From a virus: DNA of 64,000 nucleotides. Below the pieces are notes generated by a model. It did not search any database and was not told the DNA's origin. It was given only the letters and a program-made list of their open reading frames with translations. Made by a program: the position numbers and the translations under genes. Below are positions 3,701 to 62,306 of the stretch, piece by piece. Location of the stretch: positions 62,001-126,000 of IMG/VR virus record IMGVR_UViG_3300035070_002905; one strand, given 5' to 3'. Position 1 is the first letter of the stretch, and every line of letters starts with the position of its first letter.

Positions 3701-4606
3701 GAAGTCGTAGCATCGTACGAAGTCGCCGCGTGAATCTGGTAGAGTAGCCACTTCCGCTGCAGGGTTACCTGTCAGGAATGTCACTAGCTCTGGGTACATA
3801 GAACGAGTGATCGTTCCACCGATTGTACGCAACCAGCCTGCCGGTACGTTGTTATTCGGGAAGTAACCCATAAAGCCTACCGGTACATCTGCCACGCGTG
3901 TAGCTGCAGGAATACCGATGTGACGTACGCTGATAGTCTCCGAGCGAGGCACGAAGTTAAGCGTCAGGACATTACCTGCCAGACTGTACTCAGTAGTCGA
4001 TAGGATCGAACCGTTACGGATAACAATTACAGATGAACGGCTAGGAGCCTGACGGCTAAGCGTAATGTCACGTGTGTTGTTAGCTGCAGAGAATACATGC
4101 TGCTCTTCGGTGATCTCGTTAACGTTGTACGGGTGGTTAACCTGGCTGATCTGCCATTGCGTACCGTCGAAGATCAACTGGATGTAAGCGTTACGTAGAT
4201 CTAGTACTAGGTCTGTATCGCCTTCAATCGTAGAGCCTGTAGGTATAACCGTTACTGGACTTACTGCGAAAGACGAGTCTCGGTCGGCTACTGCTACTAG
4301 ATTACCTACTACTGGATTAGCCGGTAGCGTGATTGTGATACCACCTGCAGCCATGTAGCCGATCTTATCGGTAGCCGTTACGTCGGCATCGGCGTTAATC
4401 CATGATAGGCCCTGTGGAGGTAGGCTAGACCACTGGATGCCGCTATCACCGCCTCCAGAAAATGCTTCCAGGAATTTACCGCCCTGGCCGGCGTATCCCG
4501 GAGCATCGTTAAGATCACTCCAGTTTAGTACCGCTTTGACTTCCGTGCGGATATGCTCCAGAAGTTCGTCGGATATGGTAGAAATACCAACTCTTGTATT
4601 TGCCAT
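728..4606 (-). CDS. Large tailspike with collar, discoidin-like and beta-helix regions
   Basis: 1,292 residues. An N-terminal virion-binding part is followed at about 250-320 by a phage tail-collar-like domain (VPVGFMGYFPNNNVPAGWLR ... LPDSRGDFVRCYDFG). Residues about 350-450 look like an F5/8-type-C (discoidin) fold (RLQYSDDGGVWFDAS, HRHWRVLGAG). A Trp/Tyr module (RTYIWFNDGNSYQWVDDSPQ) precedes a classic Pectate_lyase_3 opening (VNVKDFGAVGDGVTDDTAAI, about 640) and a long parallel beta-helix rich in N and V. It is probably a trimeric receptor-binding spike, perhaps a depolymerase; catalytic residues cannot be named. The start has AAAGGAGCCAAG before ATG. Confidence 0.85.
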   Translation of the reverse strand: MANTRVGISTISDELLEHIRTEVKAVLNWSDLNDAPGYAGQGGKFLEAFSGGGDSGIQWSSLPPQGLSWINADADVTATDKIGYMAAGGITITLPANPVVGNLVAVADRDSSFAVSPVTVIPTGSTIEGDTDLVLDLRNAYIQLIFDGTQWQISQVNHPYNVNEITEEQHVFSAANNTRDITLSRQAPSRSSVIVIRNGSILSTTEYSLAGNVLTLNFVPRSETISVRHIGIPAATRVADVPVGFMGYFPNNNVPAGWLRTIGGTITRSMYPELVTFLTGNPAAEVATLPDSRGDFVRCYDFGAGTDTTQIPSQLIANELGRWMTTTFPGTTENLWDGNTSTTTTVNFADQSIGYSFDAPTTVNSITLFNAESLGAQYLPSQIRLQYSDDGGVWFDASAVVPGNTNNALVTIASTELAAHRHWRVLGAGGLQHPNSDQYWTVATLQFFGTMQARVIGSQQGSSVGEMDLTVGGTPYGIGQVPTGAGTSALVANGTGVAAGGAETRPDNVAYVLCIKSSHYQNGELGTEDLNNVLTEIAQIRSEASDSRSYVQPTPPENPVDNARWYDTESGRTYIWFNDGNSYQWVDDSPQAAAQTAESINAAEILSVGSTQARALNQRFADVVNVKDFGAVGDGVTDDTAAIQAAINTRGSVYTPPGSYKITSQIDLTPCSAFKGEGSDSVRFIISGDSITTAFRYGEDDSNWLTQVTTLASTVGEVGERSIDVVDASSISAGDELIIWDATIGSFNPARDNYYKGEFLEVNQVIGNTVYSKESLYDGYNDLTDVRIYRHTGTSFTAKGFSLVCEENLTQDFGLRIAGVMGLHLEDIKANSFDYAAILVDRCRYVSSTNLVVDMSNRLASPNNTYYGYSVSNCQDLTLTNSFFKSIRHGIAHGGGGSNGSIVVRNSQVTNCTSICTTSVGAVDTHGNGENITFQGNYIDGGCTLGGHRISYIDNTIRNSVGASAIKITEPISMEHTISGNIVQCFYAEVGRGTFIDAGGNSTDWDANTYRKGVLRITDNQVTANGFVGNVEQDLVVLRNRGSVADTSIVVSGNTFDGGAGASAMAGALLVQIDSGSPVSDISIVSNTFLGCGVSVSNQSAVNAYITNNIIDGRFQSTIDKNGIYAWVTGNAVVSDNIIRNTSVTPISVRGDSSSTSIDVKNNIVDEYCSVTSPTSSRAGIWVQDASTANISDNKVVSDRVEAIRSIVVAGTVVELVEGTNDMVLKGIRQTSIRQDATVTSFVNLGPFAQIGSVPPAFSGTYYGQVYVDVTANNAYMVVNSIGSGSSDWKLI

Positions 4607-4643
4607 TCTTGGCTCCTTTAGTTACGTTGCGCGCGCTATACTC

Positions 4644-4676
4644 TATTTTACACATAATAGGGATTTCGGTTATAAG
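4644..4676. promoter_or_regulatory. Divergent promoter region
   Basis: Minus-strand GTAAAATA (4644-4651) lies 38 bases before the spike start. Plus-strand GTTATAAG (4669-4676) lies 44 bases before the RuvC-like gene. The same pair of motifs recurs at 62853-62876 between divergent genes. Inferred from recurrence. Confidence 0.5.
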
Positions 4677-4719
4677 TGATATAGAGAGGGACATGATAAC
4701 GACTATCTATGGAGGATTG

Positions 4720-5217
4720 ATGGATCATACTGAATATTACCTAGGGATCGACCCTGCATGGAAGACCTGTGCGGTAGCCTTGATGAACGATCGTAATGAA
4801 GTCATTAAGTCTATCGTACTGGACCCGTCTACCATGGAGATGGCCGAGGTTCCCGATGTAGTAGAAGCTTGGCTGGGAGGTGGATTCCACCAGATTATCG
4901 GCTGCTGCATGGAGCGTTTCGTCTACTATGAAGGCGTGCACAATCCAGACAGCGAGCGGATTCTGATGGTAATCGGCCAGCTACAATATTGGTTACGCAC
5001 TAAGAACATTCCCTGTACGCTCTGGAGAGCATACGATTGGAAGAGTCGTCTTAGTAAGCACTTATTTAAAGAACGGGATTTCCGTAATCCCAGTGATCGC
5101 TTCGATAAGGTATTCTCAGTGGCAGCTGCAGAATGTTGTACCGGCGTGAAATTCGAAACAGACCACGAGGCCGATGCAGGATGCTTGGCCTATCTAGCAG
5201 GAGCTATGTATGCATAA
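4720..5217 (+). CDS. RuvC-like Holliday junction resolvase / RNase H-fold nuclease
   Basis: 165 residues from the ATG at 4720, chosen because GGAGG lies four bases upstream. The fold signature is a first strand YLGIDPA with D11, an acidic residue after the fourth strand (MERFV, E65), and a C-terminal DHEADA with D148 and D152. This is the acidic quartet of RuvC-type resolvases. The middle helix (ERILMVIGQLQYWLR) fits the family. Likely role: resolving branched DNA during replication or before packaging. It opens a plus-strand operon and overlaps the next gene by eight bases. Confidence 0.75.
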   Translation: MDHTEYYLGIDPAWKTCAVALMNDRNEVIKSIVLDPSTMEMAEVPDVVEAWLGGGFHQIIGCCMERFVYYEGVHNPDSERILMVIGQLQYWLRTKNIPCTLWRAYDWKSRLSKHLFKERDFRNPSDRFDKVFSVAAAECCTGVKFETDHEADAGCLAYLAGAMYA

Positions 5218-35776: not shown

Positions 35777-36460
35777 ATGTATAACGAAATGCCCTGGGAC
35801 TACCGAGTGTATCCCGGAGATCCATCAATACGTTACCGATCCAGAAGAGGAGACCTAGAGTACTTCCGAGAGGATCTCGCCGCCATGGGGTTCGTCCCCG
35901 GCGACGACGATCAGTTCCCTCGAGAGTTCACTACCGACTACACTGACAACGACTGGGTGCCCCGTGGCGAGACGTACACCCCTGACAACGACCGAGAGTG
36001 GCAGGCAGTGCGCTCGGGCTGTAACGCAGACGTACAGAGCTCTGAGGACTACGAGTGGGAAGATTTCATCGAGGACCTCGGGCTAACCGACCACGTGTAT
36101 CGCGGTCGACTGCCCGACCTCAACTTCGACTCAGACCTATCAGCTGCAAGTATAGAGCTGTTATCTAGGGGTATACCAGCGGACGAGTATATCTTCAACC
36201 AAATGAAAAAAGAGGGATCTACATGGACACCAAGGAGTTCATTCATGTCTTCGATAAACTACGACGCTTTATGGATATCCATTCAAGAGGCACAGCAGAG
36301 GAAATCTCTTTCTCTGAATACAACGGACAGTTCTACCTCGTGGGTACAAACGGGTACGAGTCCGAGTACGGGAGCGACGCTCACCATGAACGGCATGAAG
36401 TTACCGTACCCGGCGACTTCTTTGAGCGGATTGACGAGTACACTGGTGCACTGCTCATAG
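35777..36460 (+). CDS. Hypothetical acidic protein with overprinted C-terminus
   Basis: 227 residues, GAGG upstream. The first 145 residues are normal and acidic. The last 80, Ser/Thr-rich and unlike the rest, are read from the same DNA as the following gene (238-base overlap). An A6 run at 36205-36210 sits just before the overlap and could be an indel or slippage point. Confidence 0.55.
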   Translation: MYNEMPWDYRVYPGDPSIRYRSRRGDLEYFREDLAAMGFVPGDDDQFPREFTTDYTDNDWVPRGETYTPDNDREWQAVRSGCNADVQSSEDYEWEDFIEDLGLTDHVYRGRLPDLNFDSDLSAASIELLSRGIPADEYIFNQMKKEGSTWTPRSSFMSSINYDALWISIQEAQQRKSLSLNTTDSSTSWVQTGTSPSTGATLTMNGMKLPYPATSLSGLTSTLVHCS

Positions 36461-36567
36461 AGCGGCATCTAGAGCGAGAGCTCAAAGCAGAGCAGGCCCG
36501 TAAGAACCAGGAGGAGCGTGACCTGGCTGAACTACAACGACTACAGGAGAAGTATAATGCCAAGTAG
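36223..36567 (+). CDS. Hypothetical helical protein, 114 aa
   Basis: AGAGGGATCTAC precedes the ATG. N-terminal segment KEFIHVFDKLRRF, C-terminal charged helix (ERELKAEQARKNQEERDLAEL) likely forming a coiled coil. Stop overlaps the next start region. Confidence 0.65.
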   Translation: MDTKEFIHVFDKLRRFMDIHSRGTAEEISFSEYNGQFYLVGTNGYESEYGSDAHHERHEVTVPGDFFERIDEYTGALLIERHLERELKAEQARKNQEERDLAELQRLQEKYNAK

Positions 36568-36949
36568 AGCACAACTAGTGCAGATCCTAGATGGGTTTGC
36601 ACACGAGTGGATAGAGGAGCGTCTATACGAGCTCGCACGTATCCGTCACGGTAAATGTATCATCGGCATAGAGGATGTCTACTACGAAGCCGATCAGGCC
36701 TACGGACGTGCATACGAGGACGGCGGAGACTGTCATCCTACCGTAGCCTGGGTGAATGCAGGGGTAGACGAACTGCTCAGCTCAGAGGCAGCCCACGAGT
36801 CCTGGATGGAGCAACAGCGCATCGAGGCAGAGAAGGAGCGTCAGCGTCAGGAGGGCCTGCGAGCTCTAGCGGCGCAGCGTACCGAAGAGCACGAACGTGA
36901 ACAACTACGCAAACTAAAGGCTAAGTATGAGACAACTACTAGTAAATAG
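36557..36949 (+). CDS. Hypothetical helical protein, 130 aa
   Basis: Start ATG 36557 with AGGAG upstream. Ends in a charged coiled-coil-like helix (EQLRKLKAKYETTTSK) resembling the end of the previous protein (LQRLQEKYNAK), so the two may be related. Confidence 0.65.
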   Translation: MPSRAQLVQILDGFAHEWIEERLYELARIRHGKCIIGIEDVYYEADQAYGRAYEDGGDCHPTVAWVNAGVDELLSSEAAHESWMEQQRIEAEKERQRQEGLRALAAQRTEEHEREQLRKLKAKYETTTSK

Positions 36950-37310
36950 CATCAAGTGCCCGGACGGCACCGTCCTGACCAGTCGACACGTCCACGACTT
37001 CCAGAGCCACACCCAGGAAGACGGCCGTGAGTATTTCGTAGACGGTGGCTGCCACTACCAACGTATCGGTTACTCTGATGAGGAGTACCTGGACTGCAGC
37101 CTGTACAGCGATGACCCTCACGAGGTGATCCGAAGCAAGTTCATCTGGACATCCTTCGGTCGCTCGGGTAAAGAGGAGCCTATTCACACTGCACTGGAAG
37201 ACATCGGACGTGCACACTTGAAGGCTCTGCTGAACTGGCCTACCAGTCAGACCATGCGTCAGGTCTTCCAGGCCGAGTGGCTATACCGTGGAGGCGAGAA
37301 GCTATGGTAA
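36927..37310 (+). CDS. Hypothetical protein, 127 aa
   Basis: Opening CPDGTVLTSRHVHDFQSH, then DGREYFVDGGCHYQRIGYSD. This is a pattern of compact phage proteins of unknown function. Overlaps the previous gene by 23 bases. Confidence 0.65.
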   Translation: MRQLLVNSIKCPDGTVLTSRHVHDFQSHTQEDGREYFVDGGCHYQRIGYSDEEYLDCSLYSDDPHEVIRSKFIWTSFGRSGKEEPIHTALEDIGRAHLKALLNWPTSQTMRQVFQAEWLYRGGEKLW

Positions 37311-37663
37311 TCTATTACCATGTATGTGATGGCGGTGATGGCTCCTCTCACGTACGCTTCTTCGACTCGGCTGAGGCCGCAAAGATAGACATGGAGCAAA
37401 CCATAGCCATCGACGGGTACAGCGTGAGCGATGGCACCGAGTTCTTCGAAGCCGAGAATGTCACCGGTCTGCGTATATCTACGCTCGATGATATGCTTCG
37501 AGGATCTAACGGCGGTCCATACGAACTGGCTAGCTGTCCTTACTGCGACGAGCAAGTCAGCTGGTGGTCTCGCAACCGTATCTGGCGCTGCCAAGCTAAC
37601 TGTGACAAATCTGCCGAAGATTGGCGTCGTCACAAATACCTAACCGACGAGGATGTCCTATGA
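37304..37663 (+). CDS. Hypothetical protein with possible zinc site, 119 aa
   Basis: Start ATG 37304 with GGAGGCGAGAA upstream. C-terminal CPYC (about residue 78) and CQANC (about 95) could form a zinc ribbon with Trp-rich surroundings (WWSRNRIWRC). Confidence 0.6.
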   Translation: MVIYYHVCDGGDGSSHVRFFDSAEAAKIDMEQTIAIDGYSVSDGTEFFEAENVTGLRISTLDDMLRGSNGGPYELASCPYCDEQVSWWSRNRIWRCQANCDKSAEDWRRHKYLTDEDVL

Positions 37664-37965
37664 TCATCCGCATCCACCTCGACGAGGAACACCTCGACGG
37701 CTCTCGTATTGTACCACTGGACTGTGCACGCAGACTGGTAGACAACCTAGAGAGCTTCGACACGTTCTGCACCGAGTTCTTTCAACCACGCTTCCTAGAG
37801 ATGGGATACGACGTCCACGTACTAAGCGAAGACGGTATCATCACTCTAAGCGAGCTAATGGATAACACCCACCCTTACATCAACAAGGAAATGCGCCGAG
37901 CACACGACACCAGGAAGATGCTCGTAGCCGGTGCGTTTACACCTAAGCCAATAGAGGACTACTAA
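37660..37965 (+). CDS. Hypothetical protein, 101 aa
   Basis: ATGA overlap with the previous stop. Acidic, no family recognised. Its stop overlaps the start of the first SNSSSSSF gene (TAATG), linking that cluster to this operon. Confidence 0.65.
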   Translation: MIIRIHLDEEHLDGSRIVPLDCARRLVDNLESFDTFCTEFFQPRFLEMGYDVHVLSEDGIITLSELMDNTHPYINKEMRRAHDTRKMLVAGAFTPKPIEDY

Positions 37966-38405
37966 TGCGCACTAGACAAGGATTCGTCAGCAACTCATCT
38001 TCATCTTCATTCCTAATCTACGGCTTCGAGATGAAACCTGAACTCATGGCAGACTACATCGAGACTCTATCAACAGAAGAGATCGCTGCGCAGCTGCAAC
38101 GAGTTTACACAAATCGTAATAAAACGTTAGAAGTACTATGTGAGGAAGCAGCCGCTATGTCCACCGAAGAGCTAACGGATTGGTTCTCCGACGACATGTG
38201 GGATTTCGCTAACACGCTAGGTCTAGACTATGAGTCAACAGATTATGGCCCAGGCCTCATCGGTGTTAGTACGGATCCAACCTGCCTCTCACTCAACGAG
38301 TCGCTTAACGGCTGGCTCACCGCAGCAAACAAGCAGAAGGTCGACGATCTGGCAGCAGACTTCGGCGTACCAACTACACTAATTGGAGATGTATCATATG
38401 GCTAG
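37965..38405 (+). CDS. SNSSSSSF-motif protein 1
   Basis: 146 residues beginning MRTRQGFVSNSSSSSFLI. The rest is acidic and helical (EEIAAQLQRVYTNRNKTLEV, STEELTDWFSDDMWDF). After the first 18 residues it shows only loose similarity to the sister proteins. The first of four consecutive genes with the same N-terminal motif, all upstream of a radical SAM enzyme. Motif role unknown; it could be a recognition or modification tag. Confidence 0.75.
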   Translation: MRTRQGFVSNSSSSSFLIYGFEMKPELMADYIETLSTEEIAAQLQRVYTNRNKTLEVLCEEAAAMSTEELTDWFSDDMWDFANTLGLDYESTDYGPGLIGVSTDPTCLSLNESLNGWLTAANKQKVDDLAADFGVPTTLIGDVSYG

Positions 38406-38835
38406 AACACGCCAAGGCTTCGTAAGTAACTCAAGCAGCTCATCATTCATCATCGGCCTAGGTGTCGCTGTAGACCCTGAGGCCCTTAAAGACATCGGCT
38501 ACGGCATCAACACGCGTCAGCTCTGCGATATCTTTGAGAATCCAGGTTGGGAGATTGATGTTAAGACTCGCGGCGATCGTATCTACCTCGAGATGGAGTC
38601 TTTCACCTACAATACGGTAGAGCTAGACGTTACCGAGGTACCGCCAGATTCAGACATCGCGATCGTCTACGCGACTGGTCATGATGATTCAGACTTCTGG
38701 AACGGTGACGACTACGACTACGATAGCGATAACTGGGAGCTGGAGGGCCATCAGGAAGAAGCTCTTAAGGCACTCGAAGACGATGAGCTAATCGAATTCG
38801 GTACGTATGAAATCGGCGCAGGCCGCAACGGTTAA
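38398..38835 (+). CDS. SNSSSSSF-motif protein 2
   Basis: 145 residues, start at ATG 38398 (GGAGAT upstream) giving MARTRQGFVSNSSSSSFI. Overlaps gene 1 by eight bases. Acidic, Asp/Tyr-rich late part (DYDYDSDNWELEG). One residue longer at the N-terminus than its sisters. Confidence 0.75.
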   Translation: MARTRQGFVSNSSSSSFIIGLGVAVDPEALKDIGYGINTRQLCDIFENPGWEIDVKTRGDRIYLEMESFTYNTVELDVTEVPPDSDIAIVYATGHDDSDFWNGDDYDYDSDNWELEGHQEEALKALEDDELIEFGTYEIGAGRNG

Positions 38836-38844
38836 GGATAGACC

Positions 38845-39273
38845 ATGAGAACAAGACAGGGATTTGTCAGCAATAGCTCCAGCAGTAGCTTCTTACTGTA
38901 CGGTTGGTCAATGGATACGGCGGACGCTCTTCCGTATCTATGGGAGGCCGAGGATGACTTCATAGATCACCTCAAGCGCCACCATAACCTCCGCGATAAA
39001 TCGGAGGAGTACATCAAGGAACTGATGGAGAAGCCTGCAGAGGAGATCTACCAACACCTAGACTATGATACCTGGTGTCTATTCGAACCCTTTGCGGCAG
39101 AGCAGGGCGAAGACATAGTATACTTCGGATATAATCTAGGCAATCCCGAGTACATGAACGTCCAGCAACTAATGGAACCTCTGCTGACCCTTGAGATCAT
39201 GCAAGAGGTTGACGATGCGGCGGCCATTGCCGGTCAACGAGCTTCCGTGTACGGAGGCACCGTCTACAACTAG
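38845..39273 (+). CDS. SNSSSSSF-motif protein 3
   Basis: 142 residues, MRTRQGFVSNSSSSSFLL start, AAGGATAGACC upstream. The C-terminal half (EDIVYFGYNLGNPEYMNVQQ) resembles the end of protein 1 (STDYGPGLIGVSTDPTCLSL) in position and pattern. Confidence 0.75.
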   Translation: MRTRQGFVSNSSSSSFLLYGWSMDTADALPYLWEAEDDFIDHLKRHHNLRDKSEEYIKELMEKPAEEIYQHLDYDTWCLFEPFAAEQGEDIVYFGYNLGNPEYMNVQQLMEPLLTLEIMQEVDDAAAIAGQRASVYGGTVYN

Positions 39274-39281
39274 GAGATAGA

Positions 39282-39695
39282 ATGAGGACACGCCAGGGCT
39301 TTGTAAGCAACTCGTCGTCCTCTTCCTTCATCATCGTGACTCACTCAGAGAATATCCATCCGGATGTCGTGGGTGATGTCACGTGGTTCGATGAGGATAG
39401 AGTGCGTGAAGAGATTAAAGAGGTCTACGGATGGGATGTCGTAGATACGTTATACAACGAGTGGTTCGATAAGAATCCTCACCGAGAAGATCCACCCTCT
39501 ATGTGGGATAAGTGGTCTACCCTATCTGAAGAAGAGCAGTGGAAGCGCTTATTTAATATACCTGAAGCCCGCGAACTGTACGACTATATGATGGACGCAC
39601 TGGACGCCGGGGACTTTGTAGCTGAAGTCGAGATGGACTATAACGACCCGAGCGAACCCATCCGACAACACCATGAAATTATTAAGGAATACTAA
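39282..39695 (+). CDS. SNSSSSSF-motif protein 4
   Basis: 137 residues, MRTRQGFVSNSSSSSFII start, GGAGATAGA upstream. Acidic, Trp-rich. The stop codon overlaps the start of the radical SAM gene (TAATG), so the two are translationally coupled. Confidence 0.75.
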   Translation: MRTRQGFVSNSSSSSFIIVTHSENIHPDVVGDVTWFDEDRVREEIKEVYGWDVVDTLYNEWFDKNPHREDPPSMWDKWSTLSEEEQWKRLFNIPEARELYDYMMDALDAGDFVAEVEMDYNDPSEPIRQHHEIIKEY

Positions 39696-40882
39696 TGATT
39701 AATCCAAAGAAACACATCCTACCTGAAGCAATGCTGAAAAACTGTGAAGTATTCTACTCTGGCCACGGCGTGACCATCTACCAGGCAGGCGAGTGGCGCT
39801 TCGCCCGTTCTGAAGCGTACAACTACGACTACAACACGGTAGACGGCTTCTTCCGTCGCTGGGGTGCCACGCTAGACGAAGACCCTACCTTCGCACCACT
39901 TAACGAGATCCTCGACATCGAGGTGACCACCATTTGTAACGGTCCGGCTAACCGTCTGTGTTCCTTCTGTTACAAAAACAATAACCCTAACGGCTACAAC
40001 ATGCCACTGGCAGACTTCCAGGCGGTAATCGATAAGATGCCCTGGTTGACTCAGTGTGCACTAGGCGCCGATGCTCAGGGTACAACCAACCCCGACCTCA
40101 TCCCGATGATGCAGTACGCACGCAGTAAGGGTATCATCCCGAACCTGACGATCGCCGATGTAAGCGAGGAGGTTGCCGAGCAGCTAGCTTCAGTCGCCGG
40201 AGCTGTAGCTGTGTCTGTGTACCGACATGCAGGCTACGACGTCGCGTATGACTCTGTGAAGCGTCTAACCGACGCAGGCATGACTCAGGTCAACTTACAC
40301 TTCATGATCTCTCAGAGAACGTTAGAGGACGCCTATGAGGTATGTCGAGCCATTAAAGAAGATCCTCGTCTTGCTAATGTCAACGCCGTCGTATTTCTCA
40401 GCCTTAAACAGAAAGGCCGTGGACAGCGACACGAGTACGTTACTGAGACTGAATACAAGGAACTGGTGGATCACTGTCTGGCAGAAGGCATTCCCTTTGG
40501 CTTTGACAGCTGTTCTGCTCCTATATTTCTGGGCGCAGTTCGTGAGCATCCATCGTATGATCGTTTCCGCGAAATGGCAGAAGACTGTGAGTCAACCCTC
40601 TTCAGTTCATACATCAACGAACACGGACACTTCTTCCCTTGCTCCTTTACCGAGAAGTGGGTCGAAGGTGGATGGCTAGAAGGCATCGACGTGCTGGCTG
40701 CCGATGACTTCGTGACCGACGTATGGAATCACCAGCGTACCTGCGACTTTAAAGACGTCCTACGCGATAACACCGATGACCTTGGCTGTCGTCAGTGCCC
40801 GGCGTACGATGTGTGCGGTCGTCCGACTCGAGTGTACGATAGTGAAGTAGAAATTGTTGACTTGACTAGCTACAAGCGATAA
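39695..40882 (+). CDS. Radical SAM enzyme with SPASM-like C-terminus
   Basis: 395 residues. The cluster-binding Cys are C81-x7-C89-x2-C92 (CNGPANRLCSFCYK), a long variant of CX3CX2C. A TIM-barrel-like pattern follows (GADAQGTTNPDL, ITVS..V, NLHFMIS). The end has FFPC and C365-x2-C368-x5-C374 (CRQCPAYDVCG), a SPASM-type auxiliary cluster motif used by enzymes that modify peptides or proteins. Coupled to four SNSSSSSF genes, which are candidate substrates (inference). Confidence 0.85.
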   Translation: MINPKKHILPEAMLKNCEVFYSGHGVTIYQAGEWRFARSEAYNYDYNTVDGFFRRWGATLDEDPTFAPLNEILDIEVTTICNGPANRLCSFCYKNNNPNGYNMPLADFQAVIDKMPWLTQCALGADAQGTTNPDLIPMMQYARSKGIIPNLTIADVSEEVAEQLASVAGAVAVSVYRHAGYDVAYDSVKRLTDAGMTQVNLHFMISQRTLEDAYEVCRAIKEDPRLANVNAVVFLSLKQKGRGQRHEYVTETEYKELVDHCLAEGIPFGFDSCSAPIFLGAVREHPSYDRFREMAEDCESTLFSSYINEHGHFFPCSFTEKWVEGGWLEGIDVLAADDFVTDVWNHQRTCDFKDVLRDNTDDLGCRQCPAYDVCGRPTRVYDSEVEIVDLTSYKR

Positions 40883-41638: not shown

Positions 41639-42745
41639 ATGACTACTAAGATCATCATCCCTGGCCGTGAAGCACAAACTCTAACTGGCATGACTATGGA
41701 CGTAGAGCAAGTTAAAGCAGCTTACGCTGGTCAAATTGATCTTTCTGCGTATAACGTCGACACTCAAGTTGTTGATGGCGAAACAGTAATCACATTCTCA
41801 AACCGCACTGGTACAAAAGGAACTGACATGCAGGTAATTAACGAAGCAGGCTCTAACCCGGTATTCACTACTATCATCATTCCGGGCCGTGAAGCTCAAA
41901 CTATTCCAGGCATGGCGCTTGGCGTAGACGATGTAGTAGCAGCATTCGCCGGTCAAATCGATCTGAAGAACTACGAGTCTCAAGTGGCTCAAGAAGAAAC
42001 AGGTCCAGTAATCACATTCGCAAACCGTACAGGCACAAAAGGAAATGGCATGCAAGTAATCAACGAAGCAGGTTCTAACCCAGTATTCACAACTATCATC
42101 ATCCCAGGTCGTGAAGCACAAACGATCCCTGGTATGGCGCTAGGCGTGGACGACGTGGTTGCCGCTTTCGCTGGTCAAATCGACCTTAAGAACTACGAGT
42201 CTTCAGTTGCTACTGAAGATACTGGTCCAGTGATCACCTTCAGCAACCGTACTGGTACTAAAGGTAATGACCTGTTCGACGTGCTTTCACAGATGATGGC
42301 ATCTCCTACTACGGTAGAAGAAGAGCCGGCTGCTCCAGCTGGTCCTACTGGTACTAAGATCCTGATCCCAGGCCGTGAAGCTCAGGTAATCCCTGGTATG
42401 CTGATGGACGCTGAGCAAGTTAAAGGTGCTTACGCTGGTCAGATCGATCTATCTGCTTACAACGTTGACGTTAGCGTTGACGGTGACTTCCAGGTAGTGA
42501 CGTTCACTAACCGCACTGGTACTAAAGGTGCTGTCCTAGACGACAGCGCTGCACTTAAGCACACTAAGATCGTGATCCCTGGTCGTGAAGCTCAGGTGAT
42601 CAGCAACATGGTACTTGACGCTTCTGGCGTTAAAGCTGCTTACGCTGGTCAGATCGATCTATCTGCGTACAACGTAGAAGAAACTGAAGACGGTGACACG
42701 TTAGTAGTAACGTTCTCTAACCGTACAGGTACTAAAGGCGCTTAA
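41639..42745 (+). CDS. Poly-ubiquitin-like precursor: five tandem PRTRC-C-like (Prok_Ub) domains
   Basis: 368 residues. Five domains of 58-59 residues at 3-61, 77-135, 151-209, 239-297 and 309-367. Each begins I-I-I-P-G-R-E-A-Q and ends N-R-T-G-T-K-G, resembling PRTRC system protein C, whose members end ...TF-x-x-x-x-GTKG (from memory of the family). Linkers of 11-29 residues separate them, and the last domain is followed by a single Ala, so cleavage after Gly would expose five identical C-termini. The downstream E2-like, JAMM and E1-like genes are the expected processing and conjugation partners. It has its own promoter region and terminator. Confidence 0.8.
   Translation: MTTKIIIPGREAQTLTGMTMDVEQVKAAYAGQIDLSAYNVDTQVVDGETVITFSNRTGTKGTDMQVINEAGSNPVFTTIIIPGREAQTIPGMALGVDDVVAAFAGQIDLKNYESQVAQEETGPVITFANRTGTKGNGMQVINEAGSNPVFTTIIIPGREAQTIPGMALGVDDVVAAFAGQIDLKNYESSVATEDTGPVITFSNRTGTKGNDLFDVLSQMMASPTTVEEEPAAPAGPTGTKILIPGREAQVIPGMLMDAEQVKGAYAGQIDLSAYNVDVSVDGDFQVVTFTNRTGTKGAVLDDSAALKHTKIVIPGREAQVISNMVLDASGVKAAYAGQIDLSAYNVEETEDGDTLVVTFSNRTGTKGA
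41645..42739 (+). repeat. Five tandem coding repeats of the ubiquitin-like precursor
   Basis: Units at 41645-41821, 41867-42043, 42089-42265, 42353-42529 and 42563-42739. Units 2 and 3 share linker and nearly all residues but differ at many third codon positions, so the repeat is kept at protein level, not by recent copying. Confidence 0.85.
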
Positions 42746-43409: not shown

Positions 43410-43648
43410 ATCTGCGTCACGAGTCGTATATGTCTCTGAACAATCTACTAGAAGGCCTTCGTAGCTTCAACGGCACACCTTCAGAAGCTCTTGAGATGGT
43501 TACTACAAGTAACTGGCAAGAAGGGCTTAACGAATACCAGCGACAGCAACAGCGTGTTCGTAACGGTAACCAACAAACGATCCGCGCTATGCAGCAGATC
43601 ACTTTCCGCGACTGTAAACCTGTAATGAGAGGAATCATCTATGTCTAG
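43364..43648 (+). CDS. Unknown cassette protein, 94 aa
   Basis: Overlaps the previous gene by 46 bases and the next by eight. Helical, Gln/Arg-rich C-terminal half (NEYQRQQQRVRNGNQQTIRA). One Cys (RDCKPVM). No family recognised. Confidence 0.6.
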   Translation: MSNLFDQFSGLSEFVDLRHESYMSLNNLLEGLRSFNGTPSEALEMVTTSNWQEGLNEYQRQQQRVRNGNQQTIRAMQQITFRDCKPVMRGIIYV

Positions 43649-44333
43649 TCATATCGACGCTCGTATCCACGCAGAAGGCTACGTATCTATCAGTAACGAA
43701 GCTGGTGCAAACAAGAACATCTCGATCCCTGACTTCTTGCGTAAGATCAACCAGCTTGAGCAGGAGAATGGCAACCAGACTCAGGAAGTAGGCGAGGCGT
43801 ATACTTACCCGTCGTCTATCCACTCGGTCCAGCGTACCACTGATGGTTTCATTGTAAGCCTGTACTTCAACGAGCGTGAAGCTAACATACGTCACTCGTA
43901 CGGTGAAAGCTACCTGATCACTGTACCTAACGTAATGATCCGTCTGGAGCTACGTAAGGTTAACGGCGAAGAGCGCTACTCGATTGTAGATGCACGCTTC
44001 TACGCTACCGATAAGAACCGCATCAGCTTGCCTACGGTATTCCCTAGCGAGCCACGCAGTCAAGAACATATCTGGGCACTACCATTCCCTAATATGTATT
44101 CCGAAGGTAACATGTGCTACGGCGGTAACAGCATGCCTAGCGTAATCTACCGTGATTGGACTGTACTAGACTCTGTCTACCAGACTCTGATCATCGATGC
44201 ATCATGTAACAACGACTTGAACGTACCGTCAGTTAACGATGGTCCGTCTAATGGCGACGACTGGTTACAAGTCCTAGCCGACCACCACTCTCGCGGTGAT
44301 GGTTTCCCTTACACTCGTCTATACAACTACTAG
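43641..44333 (+). CDS. E2-like protein of the PRTRC-B / Prok-E2_D type
   Basis: 230 residues. The central motif IWALPFPNMYSEGNMCYGG (144-162) matches the PRTRC protein B pattern (aromatic-x-P-x-x-N-x-Y-x-x-G-x-x-C-x-G). C159 would be the catalytic thioester Cys. It overlaps its upstream neighbour and precedes the JAMM gene, as in E2-JAB-E1 operons. Family pattern is from memory. Confidence 0.7.
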   Translation: MSSHIDARIHAEGYVSISNEAGANKNISIPDFLRKINQLEQENGNQTQEVGEAYTYPSSIHSVQRTTDGFIVSLYFNEREANIRHSYGESYLITVPNVMIRLELRKVNGEERYSIVDARFYATDKNRISLPTVFPSEPRSQEHIWALPFPNMYSEGNMCYGGNSMPSVIYRDWTVLDSVYQTLIIDASCNNDLNVPSVNDGPSNGDDWLQVLADHHSRGDGFPYTRLYNY

Positions 44334-44345
44334 GAATATACTACC

Positions 44346-45479
44346 ATGGCAATGATTATTAACCCGATTACTACAGCATTCATGACAGCAGCCGAGTACG
44401 ATTCAGGTGAATTCGCTCGCTTCCCATTCAAGTACATCCTTGAAGAGAACGGCTCGATCATGTACCACACACAACTAAGTGCAGGTCGCTTCGTCTGCAT
44501 GGAAGAAGCTAAGATCAAAGGCCTGGCGGTCAACAAGACGACTAAGCCTCGTGAAGCAATCTTGCAACATCTACCTAACGGTGGTCAACGCGTTCCTGAA
44601 GAGTTCTTCTGGCAGATCCGCCAGTTCTTCCTTGACGTAATGGGTATGGGCCCGTCTACATATGAAGCTCAGGTCTTCGTACTGTGGAACGAGCATACTC
44701 AAGAGTATCGAATCATGGTCCCTAAGCAAACTGTATCAGCAGCAGCGGTACGTTATGACATTCAAGATCAGCTAGGTGAAGGCGACCACATCATTATGGA
44801 TATCCACAGCCATAACGATATGGGTGCGTTCTTCTCGGGAACCGATGACCGTGACGATGCGAAGAACTGCTGGATCTCTGGCGTGTTCGGTAAGCTCTCT
44901 ACTAACCTAGAGTACCGCTTCCGCTTCAACGATGGCACCGGCCACCACTACGAGCTGGCTAAAGGTGATATCTTCACGGTACCCGCAGCACAGTCTCAAG
45001 AGACTCCGCAGGCTTGGATCGACCAGGTTGAAATCCAGACGTACTCGAGCACTCGGTATCAAGGATACAATCGTCAGCCTTATCAAAGCGGTAACTACGG
45101 CGGTTGGCCGAATAGGAACCGCAATGCAGTAGAGACTCAGGACTACCCTGGCTGGGGCGATTCATGGGATGACGATACTACGGGACTTTTTAGCGAGGCG
45201 TCAGACCTGGACGCCTTCTTAAACGGGTCTACATTCTCGGAAGATGATGCATACAGCGAGTTCTATGATACACTGGTTGACTGCCTGTCTACGTTAGACC
45301 CTAAAGAGAGCGTTAACGTTCTTAAAGAGTTCATTAGCTGGATCGACAACCCTGCTCATGAGGCTGAAACTACTGATCGTGAATGGGACTCCTATAGCGA
45401 CGTGACGTATTACTACAGCCTATTTAAAGTAACACCTGAAATGGGTAAAGCTGTCGCACAGGACGTAATGGGAGCTTAA
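44346..45479 (+). CDS. JAMM/JAB-domain metallopeptidase (PRTRC-A-like)
   Basis: 377 residues. A complete JAMM motif: E107 (STYEAQ) and H154-S-H156-x7-S164-x2-D167 (IHSHNDMGAFFSGTD). Zinc peptidases of this type mature ubiquitin-like precursors or remove them from targets. Here the five-domain precursor is the obvious substrate. An N-terminal 100-residue part and a C-terminal acidic/Tyr-rich extension of about 170 residues are extra to the core. Its stop abuts the homing endonuclease start. Confidence 0.85.
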   Translation: MAMIINPITTAFMTAAEYDSGEFARFPFKYILEENGSIMYHTQLSAGRFVCMEEAKIKGLAVNKTTKPREAILQHLPNGGQRVPEEFFWQIRQFFLDVMGMGPSTYEAQVFVLWNEHTQEYRIMVPKQTVSAAAVRYDIQDQLGEGDHIIMDIHSHNDMGAFFSGTDDRDDAKNCWISGVFGKLSTNLEYRFRFNDGTGHHYELAKGDIFTVPAAQSQETPQAWIDQVEIQTYSSTRYQGYNRQPYQSGNYGGWPNRNRNAVETQDYPGWGDSWDDDTTGLFSEASDLDAFLNGSTFSEDDAYSEFYDTLVDCLSTLDPKESVNVLKEFISWIDNPAHEAETTDREWDSYSDVTYYYSLFKVTPEMGKAVAQDVMGA

Positions 45480-46025
45480 ATGGAATTAGAACTGACACAG
45501 GGATGTGTCACTCTTATTGATGATGAAGATGCCGACCTTGTGTCGGCTCACAAGTGGTATCCTTTATACGTACCAAGTAGAGATAAATACATGGTGATAC
45601 GTAATAGGAAGATGGTGAACTACGAGAGGAGTGGTACTAGGTATCTGCATACCTTCCTACTGCCTGTTAAAGATGGATATTCTGTAGATCATATAAACAG
45701 GGATCCTCTAGATAACCGACGTAGTAATTTACGAGTAGCTAATAAGCAGCAGCAGCAGCTTAACACTGGACCTCGCAGGAATTCACCTATCCCGTATAAA
45801 GGAGTATCTTATAAGAAGACTAATAGCAATTACGTAGCTCAGATGTATGCACATGGTAGGAATATACATATAGGATCATTCGATTCTCCTACTGATGCAG
45901 CATTGGCGTATGATGAATACTCATTAGACTATTGGTCTAACATCCCCGACGATCCTATCTCAGGGTCGTATACACAATTCCTATATTTAAACTTTCCGGA
46001 GAAACACAATGGCACTATTGCGTAA
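45480..46025 (+). CDS. HNH-AP2 homing endonuclease (mobile gene)
   Basis: 181 residues. HNH core around 57-90 (H57; VDHINRDPLDNRRSNLRVAN with D70, H71, N79) and a C-terminal AP2 DNA-binding domain at about 105-153 (YKGVSYKKTNSNYVAQMYAH, GSFDSPTDAALAYDEY). Arginine AGG/AGA and AT-rich codons stand out from the neighbours, suggesting separate origin. It starts right at the JAMM gene stop and overlaps the E1-like gene by 17 bases. Confidence 0.85.
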   Translation: MELELTQGCVTLIDDEDADLVSAHKWYPLYVPSRDKYMVIRNRKMVNYERSGTRYLHTFLLPVKDGYSVDHINRDPLDNRRSNLRVANKQQQQLNTGPRRNSPIPYKGVSYKKTNSNYVAQMYAHGRNIHIGSFDSPTDAALAYDEYSLDYWSNIPDDPISGSYTQFLYLNFPEKHNGTIA

Positions 46026-47025
46026 ATTTGATTTACTTTTGCAGGACGTTATCGTCGTGGGTTGTGGTGGTACAGGTTCACGTACAATCCCTATGATCGT
46101 GCAGCTGTTGAAGACTGCTCCTGCAGCGATCGGTCCCGCGCTATACCTAGTGGATGGTGATGAGGTTGAGGCTAAGAACCTTGCCCGTCAGAACTTCATC
46201 GAGCCTGATATCGGTCGTAACAAGGCGGTTGTACTAGCTGAGCGCTACGGCCAGGCTATGGACTTCCCTGTACATGCACATCCGCAGTTCGTTACGGACG
46301 GCGGTAACATCGTGGGTGACATTAACCGATCGGCTAGCTCTAACGACTTCCGTCAGCTAGGCCAGATGCGTAAGATCTGGATCCTTGCAGTAGATAGCAT
46401 CAAGGCTCGTATGATGGTACTTCAACAGGCCGGTCACAACGATGTAATCATCGATGCCGGTAATGAAGATACATTCGGTCAGGTGAGCATCTACGATAAC
46501 ATCCACCTAGAGTGCCTCCAGGGCGACTCTACGCCGGAGTTAGGTCCCTTCCAAGGGGATTACGCACTGCCGTTCATTCCGTCGCCCCTGACGTCGTACA
46601 TCGCCGCTGTGATCAATCCTCCGGTTGCTACCGGTTCGTGTGCAGATCTAGATCAGTCTCTAGCGATCAACAATATGATGTCTGCGGGCATCGTTGGTAT
46701 GCTGCAGAACCTGATCTACAACAACGAGTTCTATACCTGTACTAACTCGTACGACCTGCACCGCGGTAACCAGTCGACTTCAATGAACCACCTCTGGTTC
46801 AACGAGACGATGGGCCGTCAGCGCTTCGAGAAGCAGGAGTTCGGTCGTCTTGGCGATGATCTACCTAACCGTCTGTACGATCACCTGTCTAGCCACTCTC
46901 AGAACTTCCTGATGGCGAAGAACATGGAGACTCGTCGTGGTTCAATGGTACATGAACTGCTTTGCGATATCCGCTCTAAGACTACTGCCGTAGATCCAGC
47001 CGTCCTGGCTGCTCTAAAGCTATAA
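46009..47025 (+). CDS. E1/ThiF-like activating enzyme (PRTRC ThiF-like)
   Basis: 338 residues. Nucleotide-binding GCGGTG (18-23), the conserved DGDEVEAKNLARQNF (D49, D51, R60) and K72, and D129 in AVDSIKAR match the ThiF/MoeB/UBA fold. C211 in TGSCADLDQSL is a candidate catalytic Cys. It would adenylate the C-terminal Gly of the ubiquitin-like domains. No separate zinc-finger pairs are seen. Last gene of the cassette, followed by a bidirectional terminator. Confidence 0.87.
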   Translation: MALLRKFDLLLQDVIVVGCGGTGSRTIPMIVQLLKTAPAAIGPALYLVDGDEVEAKNLARQNFIEPDIGRNKAVVLAERYGQAMDFPVHAHPQFVTDGGNIVGDINRSASSNDFRQLGQMRKIWILAVDSIKARMMVLQQAGHNDVIIDAGNEDTFGQVSIYDNIHLECLQGDSTPELGPFQGDYALPFIPSPLTSYIAAVINPPVATGSCADLDQSLAINNMMSAGIVGMLQNLIYNNEFYTCTNSYDLHRGNQSTSMNHLWFNETMGRQRFEKQEFGRLGDDLPNRLYDHLSSHSQNFLMAKNMETRRGSMVHELLCDIRSKTTAVDPAVLAALKL

Positions 47026-61454: not shown

Positions 61455-62306
61455 CTATACCAGACTCTCTAGTACCTGTAGCTCTCCTAGAGGTAGTGCC
61501 TCGATGGCGTCCTTCATTTGGTGGGCTTCTTTAAGTAGCTGGCCGATATCATCACCTAGTGCAGCGCCTGCAGCCTCTGCGACTTTGATTAAGCTCTCAG
61601 CCGGTACGCTCTTCTTGTGTAGCTTAATAGAGCATGCTGCCTGCTTAACCATGAAGCAATCTTTATAGAATGACGGGCCGAAATAGTTAGCCGACTTCTC
61701 TAGTCCGCGGATGGTATTGTAAATGGCACGGTTATCTTCTACGCTAAGCTTCTCGGGATCGGTAGATGCAACTACCTGAGCGATCTTAGTGAACTCATCC
61801 TCGCCGGTAATATCTGCACGATGCTTGAGTGCTTCTACTGCAGCGATCTTACTCATAGTACCTGCGCCCGCGAAGATCTTGATGATATCTGAATCGACCA
61901 TGCTAGAGTAGTTATCCACTAGACTCTCACACGCCGATGCGATCTTATCCATATCAGGTCGTACCTGGGCTAGCTGAGTATGAATGAACCCCTCTGCCTG
62001 TGCAACCTTATCGCCTAGCTCTTGGACGCCTGCCTGACGTACCTGAGCGGCTTTAATCATCTTGCTAGTCATATCGGCTACAACACCGCGTACTTCGTAT
62101 AGGTCTACTGCTTTATCAACTCGAGGGATTGCATCATAATCACCTGGACGGTGTGCGATCTTCTCAAGGTATGCCAGCTCTAGTGCGCTGACGATCGTGT
62201 GGTCTTTGCTGTCTGTCTCATAGTTACCTTCCAGTGCGGCCTGTTTGACCATCTCATTAACTTCTGGAAGAAGCTCTGCTACTTGACGAATAGTATGTAA
62301 AGGCAT
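61455..62306 (-). CDS. Hypothetical helical protein, 283 aa
   Basis: Almost entirely helical with regular acidic/basic alternation (KAAQVRQAGVQELGDKVAQA). AAAGGAGCATTAT precedes ATG. Possibly a virion interior or chaperone protein; no family recognised. Confidence 0.6.
   Translation of the reverse strand: MPLHTIRQVAELLPEVNEMVKQAALEGNYETDSKDHTIVSALELAYLEKIAHRPGDYDAIPRVDKAVDLYEVRGVVADMTSKMIKAAQVRQAGVQELGDKVAQAEGFIHTQLAQVRPDMDKIASACESLVDNYSSMVDSDIIKIFAGAGTMSKIAAVEALKHRADITGEDEFTKIAQVVASTDPEKLSVEDNRAIYNTIRGLEKSANYFGPSFYKDCFMVKQAACSIKLHKKSVPAESLIKVAEAAGAALGDDIGQLLKEAHQMKDAIEALPLGELQVLESLV

Follow-up and report, generated by a model that had tools for sequence, protein, structure and literature searches.

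A shared N-terminal tag on divergent phage proteins and a linked radical SAM/SPASM-type enzyme: a candidate protein-tagging unit

Introduction

Radical S-adenosylmethionine (SAM) maturases are known to act on small peptides and on a small number of dedicated partner enzymes. In the prochlorosin, Nif11 and NHLP leader families, one enzyme meets many precursors that have an N-terminal segment in common, and a single prochlorosin maturase accepts many precursors through one common leader. Peptides and radical SAM enzymes of the SPASM type are also paired in the FxSxx modules of VMAP conflict systems, where a metallopeptidase processes the C-terminal peptide motif (Kaur et al., 2020; PMC7159879). 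In the current study, we characterized a locus within a window of 64,000 nt (the whole stretch of DNA analyzed, positions 62,001 to 126,000 of IMG/VR virus record IMGVR_UViG_3300035070_002905), in which four adjacent genes encode small acidic proteins that open with the same peptide, here called the tag, and a fifth gene encodes a radical SAM/SPASM-type enzyme. We propose that the five genes form a protein-tagging unit in which the adjacent enzyme modifies the shared N-terminal tag, a reading to which we give a probability of about 0.7.

Relatives of both components are on record. The enzyme belongs to the phage protein family phrog_7293, and phrog_7397 opens with the same tag (a weak match, E 0.01-0.06); both are listed without a function, and no link between the two is given. 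A relative of the enzyme, encoded by gene 228 of Klebsiella phage Rpl1, has been called a predicted peptide-modifying enzyme, and the available part of that source names no substrate (PMC9960720). This annotation is all that the open-access literature yielded for the enzyme, and nothing relevant was found there for the tag motif. The tag/enzyme pair matches no curated family above cut-off and has no description in the open-access literature.

Results

The window is part of a 172,110-base virus record with matches to terminase, baseplate wedge and ribonucleotide reductase. Within it, tag protein 1 (positions 37965..38405, 146 aa) begins with MRTRQGFVSNSSSSSFLIYG..., tag protein 2 (38398..38835, 145 aa) reads MARTRQGFVSNSSSSSFIIGLG...GAGRNG, tag protein 3 (38845..39273, 142 aa) begins with MRTRQGFVSNSSSSSFLLYG... 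and tag protein 4 (39282..39695, 137 aa) with MRTRQGFVSNSSSSSFIIVTH.... For protein 2, the ATG at 38398 fits as start codon and the listed TTG start is probably wrong. All four genes lie on the plus strand, either overlapping or separated by at most 9 bases. An earlier note, drawn up from the sequence alone, had described four adjacent genes with a common N-terminus, acidic products and a fourth gene running into a radical SAM gene, and these observations proved exact: every protein opens with M(A)RTRQGFVSNSSSSSF, 15 identical residues, the isoelectric points are 4.05-4.38, and the fourth gene shares one base with the enzyme gene. There is no further copy of the tag in the 172-kb record. The description of the proteins as otherwise divergent held insofar as relatives of the body (the part following the tag) could be detected outside the window's phage for protein 2 only, and needs qualifying for proteins 1 and 3, whose bodies weakly resemble each other. 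The protein 2 body family also occurs in other phages and in one Lokiarchaeota genome. Protein 1 matched no Pfam or NCBIfam family, and its tag weakly resembles the N-terminus of phrog_7397. A PDB sequence search with a tag protein found no match; neither did tblastn with the 20-aa tag, in which the serines were probably masked by low-complexity filtering.

The tag of protein 1 (plus strand, 37968..38012) was compared codon by codon with the equivalent 45-nt stretches of proteins 2-4 (38404-38448, 38848-38892 and 39285-39329, also on the plus strand). Any two of them differ at 9-11 of the 15 codons without a single amino-acid change, with up to four switches between TCN and AGY serine codons, and independent synonymous encodings would be expected to differ at 9.6 codons given the codon usage of this phage. 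Since the synonymous positions are saturated, selection must hold the peptide itself, and a DNA-level repeat or a conserved translation signal is ruled out. Nor is the shared tag due to chance: across the 1.46 Mb of enzyme-selected viral loci, 278 copies of the motif were counted, vs. 0 after shuffling. In an AlphaFold2 model of protein 2, which is of moderate quality (overall predicted local distance difference test score, pLDDT, 70), residues 1-13 are disordered (pLDDT 37) and the first strand starts at residue 14; the body is predicted to fold as a beta protein, leaving the tag disordered. A fold search with this model returned no significant match (best E 0.098).

The enzyme gene (39695..40882, plus strand) encodes a 395-aa member of phrog_7293 (E 2.2e-175) that is ~58-65% identical to proteins of RB43-type and Slopekvirus phages and 24-60% identical to the wider viral and prokaryotic homologues. 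Its cysteines are arranged as C81-X7-C89-X2-C92 and C365-X2-C368-X5-C374, precisely the spacing noticed earlier, and many homologues have CX3CX2C where the window enzyme has CX7CX2C. C81, C89, C92, Y93, C273, C298, C316 and C368 are invariant in 53 homologues. The three-cysteine [4Fe-4S] motif of radical SAM proteins is present, and so, in the predicted fold, is their partial TIM barrel. C298-X12-G311-X4-C316 and the C-terminal cysteine cluster match part of the SPASM pattern, C-x(9-15)-G-x4-C ... C-x2-C-x5-C-x3-C. The AlphaFold2 model of the enzyme is confident (pLDDT 92); its best PDB fold matches are SuiB with peptide, SuiB, TigE and PqqE, with BtrN and EpeE lower. The closest fold class in the model is therefore mainly that of peptide-modifying SPASM/twitch enzymes, in keeping with the kinship first surmised from the cysteines. 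The N-terminal part is predicted to be all-beta except for two short helices, and does not resemble a PqqD-like winged helix. A PDB sequence search with the enzyme returned PPR-repeat artefacts, SkfB and BtrN, and no NCBIfam maturase model scored above cut-off for the window enzyme or its bacterial relatives.

The coupling of tag and enzyme that had been read from this one locus was borne out strongly across viruses and prokaryotes, in both search directions and for non-neighbours as well. Starting from the enzyme, a scan of IMG/VR with ten viral enzymes, drawn from tag-selected or enzyme-selected loci, gave 80 loci, which include near-identical relatives and are not 80 independent events; a tag gene lay within 10 kb of the enzyme in 73 of them. 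These loci hold 319 tags (mean 4, maximum 10 per locus) at a median distance of ~1.9 kb, all 319 on the strand of the enzyme, and the reversed motif occurs 0 times. Three of the seven loci without a nearby tag are longer records with tags elsewhere, up to ~200 kb off, and the remaining four are contigs of 9.7-38 kb. In a separate, earlier scan, the strict GFVSNSSSS pattern was present in 14 of 19 enzyme records (control pattern, 0), and several of the other five carry tag variants such as TFVSN, SLVSN or GFISN. Starting from the tag, the enzyme was found in 12/14 viral records fetched with tag proteins and in 32/50 viral contigs fetched with the pattern.

In RB43-type phages, the enzyme lies ~20 kb from two tag genes. 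Among 50,697 phage records, 173 have the enzyme and 174 the first tag protein of the RB43 type, with nearly identical counts per genus; these phages are one clade, and their co-inheritance counts as one lineage. It shows that the pair is kept without adjacency. No third gene is conserved beside the viral enzymes, apart from the neighbors within the RB43-type clade and those in a bacterial subset. In several RB43-type phages (L009, L010 and L013), a minus-strand gene near 4209-4979 directly precedes the radical SAM gene; it is annotated as a homing endonuclease in L010, and some RB43-type records have the enzyme in two pieces.

Among 84,980 prokaryote species genomes, the strict tag pattern was found in 31 stretches, with carriers in Lachnospiraceae, Treponema, Veillonella, Sulfuricurvum, Verrucomicrobia, Asgard archaea, Thermoplasmata and others. 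When 30 tag-bearing genomes were searched whole, 27 had the enzyme at E ≤ 1e-3 and 26 at 1e-20. The background consisted of non-seed genomes of the same class or phylum, in which the enzyme occurred in 4 of 290 Clostridia and 1 of 295 Spirochaetota (5/585; Fisher p ~1e-36). On inspection, all five of these background genomes proved to have a tag gene <2 kb from the enzyme, with variants that include MKIKADFVTNSSSTSF, MKIRSDFVTNSSSTSF, VKIRKGFVTNSSSTNF, MKIKSDFVTNSSSTSF and MKYRTGFVTNSSSSSN. A trypsin-like/STAND ATPase gene stands upstream of the tag gene and the enzyme, on the same strand, in Acetatifactor, Lachnobacterium, Veillonella, Sulfuricurvum, Verrucomicrobia and others, and ATPase homologues at E ≤ 1e-14 occur in eight loci (L196, L199, L202, L207, L213, L214, L220 and L224). 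The L196 ATPase has TASH and GLSGAP motifs, a P-loop and a match to PADLOC Avs2 (E 9e-16), and the gene order in L196 and its close relatives is ATPase, 142-aa gene, tag gene, enzyme, ~300-aa gene. This operon (L196:1990-6813) and its relatives, which combine a trypsin-STAND (Avs2-like) ATPase with a tag protein and the enzyme, make a candidate defense system. Another group of bacterial tag genes (L221:4451, minus strand; L290:2572, plus strand; L291: about 1483, minus strand) encodes long proteins with a hydrophobic, signal-like stretch right after the tag, and adjoins an enzyme subfamily with CX7CX6C spacing and a gene for a membrane-protein-like product.

The tag consensus is M-K-x-R-x-G-F-V-S/T-N-S-S-S/T-x-S-F/Y followed by two hydrophobic residues. 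Counted with one position relaxed at a time over ~540 distinct tags, conservation is near-complete at R4 (538/541), N10 (538/539), S11 (538/538), S12 (538/539) and F/Y16 (538/540) and high at F7 (528/540, with rare L and Y) and S15 (524/537). Position 8 is V in 521 tags and I in 16, with one A otherwise; position 9 is S or T; positions 13 and 14 tolerate T, A and C and rarely V, G or N. Pattern-selected seeds are biased to the consensus over positions 1-16, and the enzyme-first set (284 tags) leads to the same result. At least 20 body families (single-linkage clusters, E 1e-5) and many singletons carry the tag; these proteins are mostly 80-300 aa long and include Zn-ribbon proteins. Some bacteria also have long tagged proteins in which a hydrophobic stretch comes directly after the tag. 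One body family is common to bacteria and phages, a hidden Markov model of the bacterial bodies finding viral bodies at E 5.5e-11. A type IV prepilin-like G|F cleavage signal was considered and rejected: position 6 can be S, T or D, there is no Glu, and a beta-strand follows the tag in the modelled protein in place of a hydrophobic helix.

The variable positions of the tag behave as dialects. Agreement at these positions was 0.791 among unrelated proteins of one genome, 0.765 among orthologues across genomes and 0.738 among unrelated proteins across genomes, and 200 shuffles of the genome labels reached at most 0.760. For example, T6-F7 recurs throughout the nine tags of one virus, SLVSN in the four tags of another, and RTRQGF in the four of the window. 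Genome-specific dialects are as expected with one shared, co-evolving reader or modifier per genome and support a trans-acting partner.

Other genes of the window lie on either side of the locus. Upstream, several small genes in the same run (36223-37663) lack the tag, and the one at 37277-37663 has a zinc-ribbon-like CPYC...C pattern. Downstream, 41639-42745 encodes a 368-aa, phage polyubiquitin-like protein with five ubiquitin-like repeats (IIIPGREAQTIPGM...FSNRTGTKG) and weak Prok_Ub and PRTRC_C matches. It is followed at 43641-47025 by genes for an E2-like protein (PRTRC_B, weak), a JAB peptidase (PRTRC_A, E 8e-21), an HNH/AP2 endonuclease and a ThiF E1-like protein (E 1e-20). Taken together, these genes make up a compact PRTRC-like ubiquitin pathway, and they share the strand of the tag genes.

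Discussion

Our proposal builds on the genes themselves, the conservation of the tag, its co-occurrence with the enzyme, the dialects and the fold class. Four different small acidic proteins would bear one standard N-terminal tag as the substrate of the radical SAM/SPASM-type enzyme, which would recognize it in trans. The tag, predicted to be flexible, may enter the barrel of the enzyme while the folded body stays outside, and a radical modification would be placed in the tag, most likely, we infer, within F7-V8-S9-N10-S11-S12. A single enzyme could serve all the tagged proteins of a genome, four here and, elsewhere, up to 10 within the stretch read around a single enzyme, and the marked N-terminus would then give unrelated phage proteins a common fate. 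Judging from the fold neighbors, candidate chemistries include a C-C crosslink (as in SuiB), a cyclopropane at V8 and epimerization (as in EpeE). Cyclopropane formation is the chemistry of TigE, one of these fold neighbors. TvgB converts Val to cyclopropylglycine (PMC9062424). As a general chemistry, a three-residue F7-x-S9 cyclophane is disfavored by the occurrence of Leu at F7 and of Thr or Ala at S9, and is possible locally.

Several observations weigh against this proposal. The enzyme was not found in 18 of the 50 pattern-fetched viral contigs; fragments account for the majority, but large contigs (214 and 162 kb) are also among them, and some phages may use another copy, or none. Conversely, phage LR756500 and a near-identical IMG/VR contig (430-460 kb), which hold the most divergent viral relatives of the enzyme (27-29% identity, CX3CX2C), have no tag match anywhere in the record, and an enzyme of this type may have a different substrate. 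The window enzyme also lacks the final X3C of SPASM, which its bacterial relatives have, and its Pfam scores for both radical SAM and SPASM fall below the curated cut-offs (SPASM, 15.5 vs. a cut-off of 21.5; a bacterial relative scores 34.1). Its assignment to the radical SAM/SPASM enzymes is carried by the predicted fold and by the relatives.

It is conceivable, albeit unlikely, that the tag is a recognition leader only, which the enzyme binds while modifying residues in the bodies. A shared N-terminus with divergent downstream parts on many substrates is the usual arrangement of RiPP (ribosomally synthesized and post-translationally modified peptide) leaders, and SuiB, the nearest fold, binds a leader. 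However, the bodies are 80-300 aa long, fall into at least 20 unrelated families and have no common residue pattern, and the one modelled is predicted to be folded, with the tag as its disordered part. In addition, the near-invariance of R4, N10, S11 and S12 is stricter than leader recognition usually needs. We give still less credence to the tag as a docking or localization signal for another factor, with the enzyme modifying something else and the two co-inherited as one module. Their ~20-kb separation in RB43-type phages, which does not require one complex, and the tag-bearing contigs in which the enzyme was not found would both fit such a signal, but the long-range co-inheritance in the RB43-type clade and in other viruses argues against it, and no other conserved partner occurs near the enzyme across diverse viruses. 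That these are ordinary paralogues of one diverging fold, in which an unmodified N-terminus is retained for structural reasons, is very improbable: a beta-strand does directly follow the tag, proteins 1 and 3 are weakly alike and some families span bacteria and phages, but the bodies include Zn-ribbon, membrane or exported and unrelated families, residues 1-13 are predicted to be disordered, the dialects track the genome and not the body family, and a structural element leaves the tie to a radical SAM enzyme unexplained.

If the enzyme does modify the tag, our best guess is that the tagged phage proteins act in host takeover or counter-defense, because several bacterial relatives share an operon with an Avs-type protease-STAND ATPase. 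By analogy, this operon suggests that the phage versions may act in phage-host conflict. A broader proposal, which we offer tentatively and at somewhat under even odds, is that the tag defines a general form of N-terminal marking in phages, bacteria and archaea, in which a carbon-centered modification, installed by a radical SAM enzyme on a universal 16-residue tag, commits dozens of folded proteins, unrelated to one another, to a shared fate in the conflict between phage and host. The tag and enzyme extend to many metagenomic phages and to >170 sequenced phage records from Enterobacteriaceae, among them those of E. coli phages RB43 and RB16. If our proposal is true, it would provide a function for phrog_7293, a widespread orphan enzyme, and the substrate set of each genome could be predicted. 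A model phage would allow the question to be tested, and protein engineering may benefit from a portable enzymatic tag.

With regard to known systems, the locus is most like the RiPP radical SAM/SPASM maturases (SuiB, TigE, TvgB, EpeE and PqqE) in predicted fold, in cysteine arrangement and in the position of the enzyme gene beside a presumed peptide substrate, and several of these maturases act on Val or Ile or form side-chain crosslinks. It differs in that its substrates would be full-size folded proteins of unrelated families, many per genome, with a fixed N-terminal tag. The locus also falls outside the hallmarks of RiPP systems (a short precursor with a cleaved leader, a RiPP recognition element, a protease and an exporter), as no RiPP recognition element, leader protease or exporter was observed, and near the viral enzymes none of the conserved genes encodes a protease or exporter. 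With the FxSxx/VMAP modules it has in common a short conserved F-x-S motif and a SPASM radical SAM enzyme, to which the bacterial loci add a third common feature, a neighboring trypsin-STAND ATPase. In contrast to those modules, the tag is N-terminal and its F can be L, as in all four tags of one virus; it does not fit the FxSxx definition, and no VMAP, vWA or MoxR genes were noticed in the stretches read or among the conserved neighbors. The prochlorosin, Nif11 and NHLP precursors have short, hypervariable, cleaved cores, whereas the downstream parts are here recurring families of protein size. The system would be of the radical SAM maturase-substrate kind, and there is a real chance that it represents a new kind of protein marking, in which a whole group of unrelated folded proteins, by virtue of a portable tag, appears to share one enzyme.

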